DNA from: an uncultured Actinomycetes bacterium
GTDB taxonomy: Bacteria > Actinomycetota > Acidimicrobiia > Acidimicrobiales > RAAP-2
Direction of reading: 5' to 3'
Assembly: GCA_903893745.1 (NCBI GenBank)
Contig: CAITNF010000004.1
Location: 186,001-250,000, forward strand
Length of the DNA stretch: 64,000 nt
The notes beneath the pieces are model-generated. The model made no database searches. It saw only the letters and a list, made by a program, of their open reading frames with translations, and was not told the origin of the DNA. This document shows positions 29,653-42,374 of this stretch, one piece after another. How positions within the stretch are numbered: the stretch's first letter is position 1; each line of letters begins with the position of its first letter. Both the position numbers and the translations under genes were made by a program.

Positions 29653-29740
29653 CCAGTGGGCAACGGTCGCCACACGGCGGCTGTTCTCCACTGGCCTCCG
29701 AGGCCTCGGATGTGTTGAACACGTCGACGGCGTCGACGTG
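29653..29740 (-). promoter_or_regulatory. Structured rpsO-pnp intergenic leader
   Basis: Three nested or adjacent inverted repeats lie in the 137-base gap: CACGTCGAC/GTCGACGTG (29720-29740, three-base loop), the 12-base palindrome CCGAGGCCTCGG (29698-29709) and CCAGTGG/CCACTGG (29653-29659 with 29688-29694). In enterobacteria the equivalent leader is cleaved by RNase III and used for PNPase autoregulation; a similar role here is inference. Confidence 0.55.
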
Positions 29741-29748
29741 ATTCTCGG

Positions 29749-30006
29749 CTAGCGACGAATGCCGAGACGACCGATCAATGTGCGATAGCGCTCCACATCG
29801 CCACGCTGCACGTAATCGAGCAGACGGCGACGTTGGCCAATGAGTTTCATGAGTCCGCGCCGAGTGTGATGATCACCCTTGTGAACCTTGAGATGCTCGG
29901 TGAGATGAGAGATGCGGTCCGTCAGAATGGCGACTTGGACTTCGGGCGAGCCGGTGTCCGTGACGTGAACCTGATAGTCCTTGATGATCTGCTGCTTCTC
30001 AGCCAT
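29749..30006 (-). CDS. rpsO: 30S ribosomal protein S15
   Basis: An 85-residue S15, a primary 16S rRNA-binding protein of the 30S platform. Typical segments [12 protein letters not shown] (near 21-32), [15 protein letters not shown] (near 41-55) and R-R-R-L-L-D-Y are present. The start is ATG 30006, giving the usual family length; the longer frame to 30066 is upstream leader. The Shine-Dalgarno is weak and distant (AAGG). It lies between ribF and pnp. Confidence 0.97.
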
Positions 30007-30091
30007 AACGTTATATTGCCTTATGAGTCGGGGGTCCCGTTGCGAGTCGCCCACTTGACGACCCACACGATCAGCGTCGCTGACCGAGGTC

Positions 30092-37221: not shown

Positions 37222-38631
37222 CTAGTAGGACTTCGCCACCAGGCAGACCAGGCCGGGCTCGCTGTCCGATGAGGGCATCGTCCCGTCGGGTCGCTGCAGA
37301 CAGCGCACGGTAACGGCTTGGGACTTGAGGGTGGTCTCGCCCTCGCCGTTCACGACCGACCACGGCAACCTCGCAAAACCCTGTTGGGCGATTTCGAGAG
37401 CTTCACCCACCGTCGTCGTGTCGGTCGTGGCCGCGTCACGGCGAGCGAGTGCCGACGCGTAGAGATCGCTCTGCATAGTTTCGAGCAGTGACGACGCCGT
37501 AGACGCCAGCGCGTCGATCGTGATCGCCACTTTCTCATCATTGTCACGACGCACCATGGTGACGACCCCTTGGGCGAGGTCCCGGGGACCCACTTCCACG
37601 CGCAGCGGTACGCCCTTGATCTCCCAGTCAGTGATACGCCGACCAAAACTCCCACGACCTTGATCCATAGTGACGCGCACCCCCGCTGCTTGGAGCAGCT
37701 TCACGATACGATCACACGCGCTAAGTACTTCTTCGTCATCTCGCACCGCGAGAACCACCACTTGAATCGGAGCGACTCGCGGCGGCACAATCAGGCCGTG
37801 GTCGTCACCGTGCGCCATGATGAGCCCGCCAACCAAACGAGTTGAGGCGCCCCACGACGTCGTGTGACAAAGTGCGGCCTGACCCTCTTCGTTTTGAAAG
37901 TAGATCTCGAAGGCCTTCGCAAAATTCTGTCCGAGTTCGTGACTCGTGGCCATCTGCAGTGCTTTGCCGTCGCGCATCACTCCTTCGCAGGTCATGGTGT
38001 TGATGGCTCCAGCGAAACGTTCACTCGGTGGCTTGATGCCGAGGTAGGTGGGCACCGCCAATATCTCTTCGAGAAAACTGTTGTAGACCTCTAAGTGAAT
38101 CTTGAGTGCGTACGCCGCGGCGTCGTCGTAGGTCGCGTGCGCGGTGTGACCCTCTTGCCAAAGAAACTCTGACGAGCGTAAGAAGAGTCGAGGTCGCAAC
38201 TCCCAGCGAACCACGTTGGCCCACTGGTTCAAAAGCAGCGGCAGATCGCGGTAACTCTGAATCCACTTGGCCATGAACTCACCAATGACCGTTTCGGACG
38301 TTGGTCGCACGACGATGGGTTCGGCGAGTAACTCTCCGCCAGCGTGGGTCACGACGGCGAGTTCGGGACTAAATCCTTCAACGTGCTCGGCTTCTTTCGA
38401 AAGATAACTCTCGGGAATAAAGAGTGGGAAGTAGGCATTCTGCGCACCCGCGGCCTTAATGCGCAGGTCAATCGCGCTTTGGATGTTCTCCCAGATGGCG
38501 TAGCCGTAGGGTCGAATAACCATTGTGCCCCGCACGGGTCCGTTGTCGGCCATCTCGGCTTTCGCCACGACGTCTTGATACCAGCGGGGGAAGTCCTCGG
38601 CCTGAGGGGTGAGGACGCTCTGCGATGCCAC
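37222..38631 (-). CDS. proS: Prolyl-tRNA synthetase (short, ProS type)
   Basis: A 469-residue class II synthetase that charges tRNA-Pro. It is the short archaeal/eukaryote-like form without the editing insertion. Motif 1 with R-G-T-M-V-I-R-P-Y-G-Y near residue 35, motif 2 W-E-L-R-P-R-L-F-L-R-S-S-E-F-L-W-Q-E near 145 and motif 3 G-G-L-I-M-A-H-G-D-D-H-G-L near 268 are present. I choose GTG 38631 (M-A-S-Q-S), preceded by AAGGAG six bases away; the ORF extends to a TTG at 38646, which contains that Shine-Dalgarno. It reads after ispG, 43 bases apart. Confidence 0.94.
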   Translation of the reverse strand: MASQSVLTPQAEDFPRWYQDVVAKAEMADNGPVRGTMVIRPYGYAIWENIQSAIDLRIKAAGAQNAYFPLFIPESYLSKEAEHVEGFSPELAVVTHAGGELLAEPIVVRPTSETVIGEFMAKWIQSYRDLPLLLNQWANVVRWELRPRLFLRSSEFLWQEGHTAHATYDDAAAYALKIHLEVYNSFLEEILAVPTYLGIKPPSERFAGAINTMTCEGVMRDGKALQMATSHELGQNFAKAFEIYFQNEEGQAALCHTTSWGASTRLVGGLIMAHGDDHGLIVPPRVAPIQVVVLAVRDDEEVLSACDRIVKLLQAAGVRVTMDQGRGSFGRRITDWEIKGVPLRVEVGPRDLAQGVVTMVRRDNDEKVAITIDALASTASSLLETMQSDLYASALARRDAATTDTTTVGEALEIAQQGFARLPWSVVNGEGETTLKSQAVTVRCLQRPDGTMPSSDSEPGLVCLVAKSY

Positions 38632-38674
38632 GTGGTTCTCCTTCAACGAGGTCGAACCAGACTAGCGAAACTAC

Positions 38675-39907
38675 TTACTCGTCTTCGGCGCGACGGCGAA
38701 TTCGCGCAATGCGTTCGGTGGTGTGGTTGGCGTCCGTACCACGGTCGTCGAGCAACAGAGCCCGGTCGGCCTGGGCTTCGGCCTCCGCACCGAGGTCGCG
38801 CGCGGCGAGTCGAGCGGCGACCCCTTCGGCAGCGATCTTCTTCGCCTCATCAACGAGTGCCGCGACCATTTCGTCCTCGGGCACCACTCGCACAATCTGA
38901 CCCTGGATAAAGAGGTGTCCTCGCTTTTTGCCAGCCGCGATACCTAAGTCCGCGTGGCGAGCCTCACCGGGTCCGTTGACGACACAGCCCATCACCGCAA
39001 CTTGAATTGGAAGATTAAGTTCCGAAAGGGCCGCTTGCGCCTCAGTCGCCACGCGAATAACGTCAACCTCCGCGCGCCCGCAGCTCGGACACGCAATGAG
39101 GTCTAACCCGCGACGTTCGCGAAGTCCGAGCGCTTCGAGTAGTTGCCGACCCGCCTTGGCCTCTTCGACGGGGTCAGCGGTCAGTGAGTAGCGCAGGGTG
39201 TCGCCAATTCCCTCGGCGAGCAGAGTGGCAATTCCGGCCGTGCCCTTGAGTAGTCCCCCGGGCAGCGGACCCGCTTCGGTAACGCCCAAGTGAAGCGGAT
39301 GATCAAAGGTCTCCGAGGCTAACCGGTACGCCGCGATCATCGTGGCGACCGACGAGGCCTTCACCGAAATCTTGACGTCCGAAAAGCCAACTTCGTCGAA
39401 GTACGCCAGCTCCAGTCGAGCTGATTCAACCAGCGCCTCGGGAGTAGCCCCACCAAAGCGTTCGTAGATATCGGGGTGCAGACTCCCCGCATTCACGCCA
39501 ATACGAATCGGTACGCCACGATCGCGCGCCTCACTGGCGACGAGTTTGATCTCTTCGGGTTTGCGAAGGTTCCCCGGGTTGAGCCGCAAACCCTGGACGC
39601 CCGCTTCGAGGGCAGCCAGTGCCATCTCCACGTGGAAGTGAATGTCCGCCACAATCGGCACGGGTGAACGTGGCACAATCTGGGCGAGCCCCTAGGCGGC
39701 GGCCAAATCATTACAGGTGCAGCGCACGATGTCCGCGCCCGCGGCGGCGAGAGCGTAAATCTGTTGGAGTGTTCCTTCGACGTCGGCGGTCTTGGTGGTG
39801 GTCATCGACTGCACCGAGATCGGAGCGTCGCCGCCGACCTTTACCGAACCAACCGCAATTTGACGAGTAACTCGACGAGGGCTGAGGGGGCTAGCGGTGA
39901 CGTCCAC
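38675..39907 (-). pseudogene. ispG: 4-Hydroxy-3-methylbut-2-enyl diphosphate synthase with an in-frame TAG
   Basis: Full-length IspG (GcpE) homology spans 410 codons from GTG 39907, but codon 72 is TAG (39692-39694). The frame is unchanged on both sides: [13 protein letters not shown], stop, G-L-A-Q-I-V-P-R-S-P-V-P-I-V-A-D-I-H-F. The rest looks fully functional, including the TIM barrel and the [4Fe-4S] ligands in C-P-S-C-G-R and M-G-C-V-V-N-G-P-G-E. GAG or AAG to TAG would be a single change. Because the MEP pathway is normally essential and dxr lies nearby, a sequencing error or readthrough is as likely as true loss. A restart at GTG 39676 would lack the first barrel strands. Confidence 0.85.
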
Positions 39908-39945: not shown

Positions 39946-41205
39946 TTAGTGGAAAGGATTATTTATGGGGTGAGCAATATCGAGATAGAGCGTGCAGGCA
40001 AAAAGCACCAGGAGCACGCTCATAAACGCGTAGACCAGTGGCGTCAAACGATTGATATCGGCGTGGTAGCGCTGACCTCGACGACTACGTAGCCGCTCGT
40101 AGGTCGCGATTGCCACGTAGCCACCGTCCAGGGGCAACATGGGGAGCATATTTAACATGCCGACAAAGATATTCACGGTAACGAGAATTTCGAGCAAGGT
40201 GCCGATACCACTTTGCGCTCCTTGCACCGCGATGCGCACCACACCAACAATCGACTCGGGCCGATTCAACTGAGCAGTCGGGTTGCTCGCTGTGGTTGCA
40301 GAACCCACTTGTCGAAAGAGACTGGCGAACTGACCGGGCGAAAAGACGTGCACCATGGCGTGAACTGACGCGTTGATCATGGAGCCAACTTGAGAAAATG
40401 CGTTGGGCACCGCGCTGAGTGCCGACGATCGAACAACGAGCGCGCTGAGTTCAACGCCCAGATAGCCCACGGGGGCTGACCCCTTCACGAGCGGTTGACC
40501 CGCAACCTTGATAGTGCGTCCGTCGACGGGCCTCGCGTGCAGCGTCAGGTCACGGCCGGCTCGCTGCACGACGATGGTCAAAAGCTCACCAACGTGACTG
40601 TGCACCATCGAGACCAGCGTGTTCGCGTCGTGCACGCCTACGCCATTGATTGAAAGGATTTGGTCGCCCGACTGCAGACCAGCAATCTGCGCCGCGTTGC
40701 GACTCTGTCCGTCCCACGCCGTAAAGGCTCCAATACCGACGTGGCTCGCTGACGGTAGGCCCACGAACGTCAGCGACGCCCAGGCGAGCGCCAGAGCCAT
40801 GACTACGTGCATTAACGATCCAGCGGAGGCGAAGAGTACTTTTCGCGGATACGACGCCGCACGGTAGGTGCGCACTTCGTCGCTCGGAGCAATCTTGTCG
40901 GTCCACGTCATGCCCGGAACCTTCACGTAACCCCCGAGGGGTAGCGCTCGAACGCCGTAACGCGTTTCCCCACGAGTCACCGACCAGATCACGGGACCGA
41001 ATCCCACGAAGAAGTCCGATACGCGCATGCCGGCACGTTTTGCGGTCATGAAGTGCCCAAATTCGTGGCCCATAATCATCAGCAAGATTGCCCCTACGAC
41101 CACCGGCAGGGCCCAGCCTCCCCACCACGCGAGCAGTGCGACGACCGCAACTGTTTCGATCAGCAGTAACGCGAGTGACGCTCGAGGAGATGTGCTGGTT
41201 TTCAT
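39946..41205 (-). CDS. Site-2 intramembrane metalloprotease, RseP/Rip1-like
   Basis: A 419-residue M50-family zinc protease that cuts transmembrane anti-sigma factors or signal-peptide remnants. The zinc motif is His47-Glu48-F-G-His51 in the first core helix, and the third ligand lies in L-P-L-D-G-G-Y near residue 357. One PDZ domain runs from about 165 to 245 ([11 protein letters not shown]). There are about four transmembrane segments. It is coupled to dxr by an ATGA overlap, the common dxr-rseP-ispG order. Gene names rseP, rip1 and rasP are used in different groups. Confidence 0.92.
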
Positions 41206-42374
41206 GATGACAACTTCAGAATACCGGAGGCAACTCGCCGAGCAGCCGCGTCATTTTCCATGAGTGCTTCGAGCGAGTCCAGAGGATCATCCACGTACGA
41301 GTCCATCACGGTCGCGACCAGCGGAATAATCTCTGACCAGGCGAGCGATCCGTCCAAGCACGCCGCCACCGCGACTTCATTGGCCGCGCTCAACCACGCC
41401 GGAGCGGCGCCCGCCCGGTCCGCGGCACGGTACGCGAGGTCCAGCGCGGGGAACGCCACCCGATCGGGTGGCTCAAAGGAGAGGTCCATAGCCGAGGTGA
41501 AGTCCATTTTTCCCCAAGCGTGCGAAAGCCGGTCCGGCAGACCCAAACAGTACGCAATTGGCAAACGCATGTCGGGGCGTGACAGCTGCGCCAGCACCGA
41601 CCCGTCGACGTACTCAACCATTGAGTGCACCACCGACTGGGGGTGCACCACCACCTTGATGCGCGTGGCCTCGATGCCAAAGAGCGCCGACGCTTCAAGT
41701 ACTTCGAGTCCCTTGTTCATTAGCGTGGACGAGTCAATAGTGATTTTGGGTCCCATAGTCCACGTGGGATGTTGCAGCGCGTCGGCCAGCGTGGCGTTCG
41801 CCAGTTGACTACTGCTCCAACCTCGAAAGGGCCCACCCGATGCGGTCAACCAGAGTGCCGCCACGTCGCGGTGACCTGGTGACGTGCTCGAACCCGCCAG
41901 GCATTGATGGATGGCGCAGTGCTCGGAATCAATTGGCAGCAGTGTCGCGCCAGGGGTGAAGCGAACTCGCTGCACCAGTGGTGCCGCCGCAATTAGGGAT
42001 TCCTTGTTGGCGAGACAGAGCCGACCACCCGCTTCTAACGTCGCCATCGTGACGGGCAGTCCGGCAAATCCCATCACGGCGTTGACCACAATTTCGGCCC
42101 GACCCGCGAGTTCGGCCAGGCCCGATGGTCCGGTGACCACTTCGACGTCGCTGGAAACGAGTGCCCGCATCGCCGCTCGATCACCATCGTGGGCCACGCC
42201 CACCATCTTGACGTTGAACTCTTTCACGATCTCGGCGAGTTCGACTAGACGCGATCCACCCGCCACCGCGACCAGATTGAACGCTTCAGGTTCACGGCGC
42301 AGCACGTCAAGTGTCTGGATTCCAATGGAGCCCGTCGCACCCAACAGCGCCACCGAGCGACGTGCGACCGACAC
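41202..42374 (-). CDS. dxr: 1-Deoxy-D-xylulose 5-phosphate reductoisomerase
   Basis: A 390-residue NADPH-dependent enzyme that makes MEP, the second step of the non-mevalonate isoprenoid pathway. The Rossmann motif G-A-T-G-S-I-G-I-Q-T starts at residue 12; L-A-N-K-E-S-L near 120, the metal-binding D-S-E-H near 149 and T-A-S-G-G-P-F-R near 185 are intact. GTG start two bases after cdsA. With ispG nearby, it shows that the organism uses the MEP route. Confidence 0.95.
   Translation of the reverse strand: MSVARRSVALLGATGSIGIQTLDVLRREPEAFNLVAVAGGSRLVELAEIVKEFNVKMVGVAHDGDRAAMRALVSSDVEVVTGPSGLAELAGRAEIVVNAVMGFAGLPVTMATLEAGGRLCLANKESLIAAAPLVQRVRFTPGATLLPIDSEHCAIHQCLAGSSTSPGHRDVAALWLTASGGPFRGWSSSQLANATLADALQHPTWTMGPKITIDSSTLMNKGLEVLEASALFGIEATRIKVVVHPQSVVHSMVEYVDGSVLAQLSRPDMRLPIAYCLGLPDRLSHAWGKMDFTSAMDLSFEPPDRVAFPALDLAYRAADRAGAAPAWLSAANEVAVAACLDGSLAWSEIIPLVATVMDSYVDDPLDSLEALMENDAAARRVASGILKLSS

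Follow-up and report, generated by a model that had tools for sequence, protein, structure and literature searches.

The ispG gene of an uncultured Actinomycetes bacterium was found to carry a single in-frame TAG at codon 72 of an otherwise intact and conserved frame. This codon most likely represents a wrong or minority base or else a mutation of very recent date, and not a novel reading of the genetic code. The frame lies on the minus strand at positions 38675..39907 of the window (i.e. the whole stretch of 64,000 nucleotides that was analysed). It starts with GTG at 39907, ends with a TAA terminator at 38677-38675, and is otherwise open except for the TAG at 39692..39694 (minus strand; codon 72 counted from the GTG at 39907).

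The interrupted ispG frame

IspG models match on either side of the stop. In NF001540 (364 positions), the 71 codons before the TAG correspond to positions 7-73 and the 338 codons after it to positions 76-362. A profile search of the whole genome with TIGR00612 returned a single match with one TAG inside, spanning positions 1-354 of 357 and scoring 386.8 bits with the stop read through, versus a cut-off of 280.25. These contiguous NF001540 matches and the TIGR00612 match bear out the preliminary description, in which the IspG frame had been traced in the same phase on both sides of the TAG. The gene therefore matches a curated IspG family over the length of the model, with a reading frame that is interrupted at codon 72, and both of its pieces match solved IspG structures (e.g. 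3noy). Of the N-terminal 71 codons (39695..39907, minus strand), 28 show an identity of 99% or more across the 109 rows of relatives described below. An open frame of 333 amino acids that begins at the first GTG past the TAG (38675..39676, minus strand) corresponds to a restart product without this conserved N-terminal part.

The neighbouring genes on the same strand are open. Upstream are an RseP/RIP-type metalloprotease (39946..41205, minus strand; 145.3 bits, just below the cut-off of 147.55) and dxr (41202..42374, minus strand), and downstream is proS (37222..38646, minus strand). The genome comprises 1,664,440 bases in 18 contigs, was rated 96.4% complete and 0.12% contaminated, and is most likely an environmental metagenome-assembled genome (MAG) of the Acidimicrobiaceae group. 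A search of viral contigs for own-species context gave no matches, a result that says little since the scan may omit records of this or a closely similar genome. The tetranucleotide CTAG was under-represented in a 744 kb sample of the genome (834 seen versus about 1206 expected from trinucleotides); its scarcity proves nothing about the TAG in ispG.

IspG and codon 72 in relatives

Among 40 relatives searched (24 of the genus and 16 of the order), ispG was detected in 39, with one match each and no internal stop in any. Two of these matches are partial, one beginning at residue 143 and hence short of codon 72 (G009), the other spanning residues 1-211 (G014); the single genome without a match is 70% complete. 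A wider sample of the order yielded a match in 214 of 218 genomes (one in 208, two in six, none in four), and one genome of this sample without an IspG match, G067, was rated 93% complete. Among the matches listed, ten order genomes besides the one studied here were flagged with one stop, and all ten stops are natural gene ends: in nine rows the alignment, which extends to about residue 406, is free of stops, and the tenth has one at position 407, its natural end.

For residue-level comparisons, 29 relatives of the 40-genome set were aligned with the best 80 loci of a public collection, resulting in 109 rows (95 distinct). The public loci are MAGs labelled Acidimicrobiaceae, Acidimicrobiales, uncultured actinobacterium or Actinomycetes bacterium, with a few Acidobacteria. 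Stops were absent from the aligned part of all 109 rows. Across the 95 distinct relatives, codon 72 was GAG in 57, GAA in 36, GTG (Val) in one and ATC (Ile) in one; the replacements of Glu are Ile in L137 and Val in L156. The alignment points to a Glu that is strongly conserved yet dispensable. In the three nearest aligned rows (L003, L004 and L005) the codon is GAA, two changes from TAG. The comparison with close relatives that the preliminary description had proposed thus gave Glu in 93 of 95 distinct relatives and a stop in none. Its guess at the source codon stands for GAG, the commonest codon (57 of 95), and falls for AAG, which was seen in none of the 95.

Selective constraint on ispG

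Private changes were counted in this ispG and in its 15 best-matching relatives of the 40-genome set (L003-L017). At sites invariant in these close relatives the stop is the sole private change of this gene, and the relatives themselves carry between 0 and 6 each. Amino-acid change was low relative to synonymous change in the comparison with L003 (pN 0.039, pS 0.613). In the 109 rows, 195 positions reach a conservation of 99% or more, and this gene agrees with the relatives at every one of them; codon 72, with Glu in 107 of 109 rows, falls just below this threshold and outside the 195. Relative rates were mixed. Slightly more amino-acid change was found here than in L003 (mean pN difference +0.012, positive with 14 of 14 reference rows), and no excess over L004, L005 or L006 (+0.001, -0.003 and -0.002, respectively). 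On these rates there appears to be no consistent relaxation, while the slight excess over L003 stands. A pseudogene under relaxed selection was also considered, and the excess of amino-acid change expected beside its stop was looked for and not seen. The absence of further decay around the TAG, as first described from the sequence, was confirmed, the stop being the lone private change at invariant sites.

Copy number and the need for IspG

Protein and model searches of the genome agreed on a single ispG. A second ispG, one of the explanations first proposed, was found by neither search in the available contigs, which may lack about 3.6% of the genome. In the model search, dxs (576.3 bits) and ispH (248 bits) scored above their cut-offs and ispE (113 bits) below its cut-off of 138.7, all without stops; HMG-CoA reductase, representing the mevalonate route, gave no match in the genome. 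From the steps sought (dxs, dxr, ispE, ispH and HMG-CoA reductase), the MEP pathway looks like the sole isoprenoid route. With a single ispG, the MEP steps kept and HMG-CoA reductase not found, IspG should be essential, and a cell with a true null allele would be expected to die if it were not supplied from outside. A passage of one report describes deletion of ispG as not survivable in E. coli (PMC8835842). A passage of another describes bacteria with incomplete isoprenoid pathways that persist as auxotrophs (PMC13001223).

Screens for other interrupted genes

ORFs were taken longest first from 996,604 bases of two relatives (G019 and G017) and compared with 744,000 bases of the genome, a choice by length that will miss some genes. 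Of 824 relative ORFs, 336 had a match; the 183 at 60% identity or more were counted and the 153 under 60% were left out. Once neighbouring or overlapping matches had been merged, the counted ORFs marked 148 distinct places and 155,975 bases (about 9% of the genome). A stop call demanded at least 8 identities in the 20 columns on each side. Only ispG (one of 148 places, matched by one ORF from each relative) had an in-frame stop flanked on either side by conserved sequence. Given that the other compared places are stop-free, the comparison indicates that the in-frame TAG in ispG is more than chance. No credible frameshifts were detected at the 148 places (156 kb). Two frameshift-like cases were explained otherwise, one sitting at a tRNA-Ser gene and the other being a plus-strand ORF at 29678-30012 that by eye looks like the antisense of a conserved gene. 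This ORF is 80% conserved over most of its length in G017 and is probably the shadow of a gene on the opposite strand. A smaller first run (97 ORFs at 60% identity or more) had called three more places in the window, with stops near the alignment start, which the flank rule removed.

The reverse comparison covered 635 ORFs, of which 290 had a match and 153 a match at 60% identity or more, at 151 distinct places. It gave two stops in relatives: one, in L187, looks real, and the other, in L215, was discounted as it lies directly before an ATG. The former is an in-frame TAA, the only interruption of a TauE-like frame (named by eye) of G019 (L187:265-1098, minus strand). Frames running past a stop were also screened by codon bias in 464 kb, where ispG ranked 4th of 4717 candidates. 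Inspection of the top 36 by eye suggested that high ranks resemble same-frame neighbouring genes or antisense frames, which makes this screen weak on its own; one such candidate, the tsf-pyrH pair, had its identity confirmed. In the literature, titles and the beginnings of abstracts yielded no published case of such an ispG nonsense mutation.

Tests for recoding of TAG

Transfer RNA genes were detected with the Rfam model at E ≤ 0.001, and the anticodons of all were read by ARAGORN. The 46 tRNA genes cover all 20 amino acids. The suppressor tRNA first offered as a possible explanation did not appear in this genome search: none of the 46 has a CUA anticodon, although a strongly diverged tRNA, or one encoded in the unrecovered remainder of the genome, could have escaped detection. 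RF1 is present (prfA model, 460.6 bits versus a cut-off of 423.25). A set of 261 long ORFs was drawn from 464 kb; the stop was in view for 255 of them, comprising 89 TGA, 83 TAA and 83 TAG. Among the usual signs of amber suppression or TAG reassignment (a CUA tRNA, several conserved in-frame TAGs, and either a rare terminator TAG or a lost RF1), none was found. The data speak strongly against both recoding and a dedicated suppressor. Recoding was rejected mainly on the use of TAG as a terminator, the presence of RF1 and the set of tRNA genes found, to which the comparison with relatives adds.

Origin of the stop codon

The TAG is probably an artefact of the consensus, arising either from a sequencing or assembly error or from a minority-strain base in a composite sequence. 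Metagenome assembly would have taken the erroneous or minority base into the consensus, so that this TAG would not be that of the working cell. The organism would then most likely make an ordinary full-length IspG from a sense codon at position 72, and we infer that the living population carries such a codon. We regard an artefact as the best reading because a single-copy, constrained gene that is expected to be essential holds one lethal base in a likely metagenome assembly. Counted in its favour are the lone ispG, the MEP pathway as apparently the sole route, the lethal E. coli deletion (as given in part of PMC8835842), the lack of decay with 195 near-invariant positions intact, the absence of stops from 109 rows, and the lone in-frame TAA that the assembly of the relative G019 likewise holds. 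Counted against it, the assembly looks clean at the 148 places (156 kb) compared, so errors are rare, and the nearest aligned relatives, L003-L005, have GAA, two changes from TAG. Of the three outcomes suggested by the preliminary description, an error or a very recent change can still account for the TAG, and readthrough is unsupported beyond the intact frame and a tolerant position.

The next-best reading, though a rather doubtful one, is a real nonsense mutation of very recent date, either in the clone that was sequenced or in a fraction of the population. It would mark either a dying lineage or cells supplied with isoprenoids or intermediates by neighbours. An event too young for other traces fits the lack of decay, and GAG, the commonest codon in relatives, becomes TAG by one base change. 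Auxotrophs with incomplete isoprenoid pathways exist, at least by the account in part of PMC13001223, and one of the four order genomes (of 218) without an ispG match is the 93% complete G067. This is offset by the retention of the MEP steps sought on either side of IspG without a detected HMG-CoA reductase, and by the expectation that a fixed null of an essential single-copy gene should kill. We consider it unlikely that the TAG is real and tolerated, with near-cognate, low-level readthrough or a GTG restart yielding enough IspG. The position tolerates Val (L156) and Ile (L137), so any inserted residue might work; however, CUA is absent from 46 tRNA genes, RF1 is present, TAG ends 83 of 255 long ORFs, and no other place of the 148 has an in-frame stop. 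Six codons past the TAG lies a GTG (39676), but ordinary IspG also has Val after this stretch, hence nothing special attaches to it, and a restart product without the 28 near-invariant positions of codons 1-71 is, by their conservation, unlikely to work. It is very improbable that the TAG is real and fixed and that an essential iron-sulphur enzyme is made solely by inefficient, suppressor-less readthrough that keeps the IspG dose low. A second intact ispG in the missing part of the genome, which would make the interrupted copy dispensable, we hold to be extremely improbable: the genome is 96.4% complete in 18 contigs and six of 218 order genomes have two matches, but 208 have one, and each of the 39 matched relatives has exactly one. 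That TAG has been reassigned to an amino acid throughout the genome merits next to no credence, the one instance being ispG codon 72, with TAG a common terminator, RF1 present, no CUA tRNA found and no second in-frame TAG at the 148 places.

If the stop were real and fixed in a single-copy essential gene, it would mean that a wild bacterium can rely on amber readthrough for an essential enzyme. For now the case serves as a caution: where an environmental assembly shows a single stop in a conserved gene, the reads need checking before claims of recoding or gene loss are made.

Comparison with known systems

The gene resembles ordinary IspG (GcpE; NF001540 / TIGR00612) in its near-full model match on either side of the stop and its 195 unchanged near-invariant positions, and differs in having one TAG at codon 72 where ordinary IspG has no in-frame stop. 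With natural amber suppression and stop-codon reassignment it shares an in-frame TAG and an intact frame beyond; unlike those systems, the genome has RF1, terminates genes with TAG, and offered no CUA tRNA among its tRNA genes and no second case in the compared places. The partial MEP pathway of the Listeria type, in which IspG is absent or defective according to a passage of PMC13001223, is similar in that the IspG step is doubtful and earlier steps are present; those species have the mevalonate route, whereas here HMG-CoA reductase was not found and ispH is kept. The likeness to lone nonsense codons in metagenome-assembled genomes, such as the TAA in the TauE-like ORF of G019, lies in a single stop with no surrounding decay, but the stop described here hits a gene that is expected to be essential.
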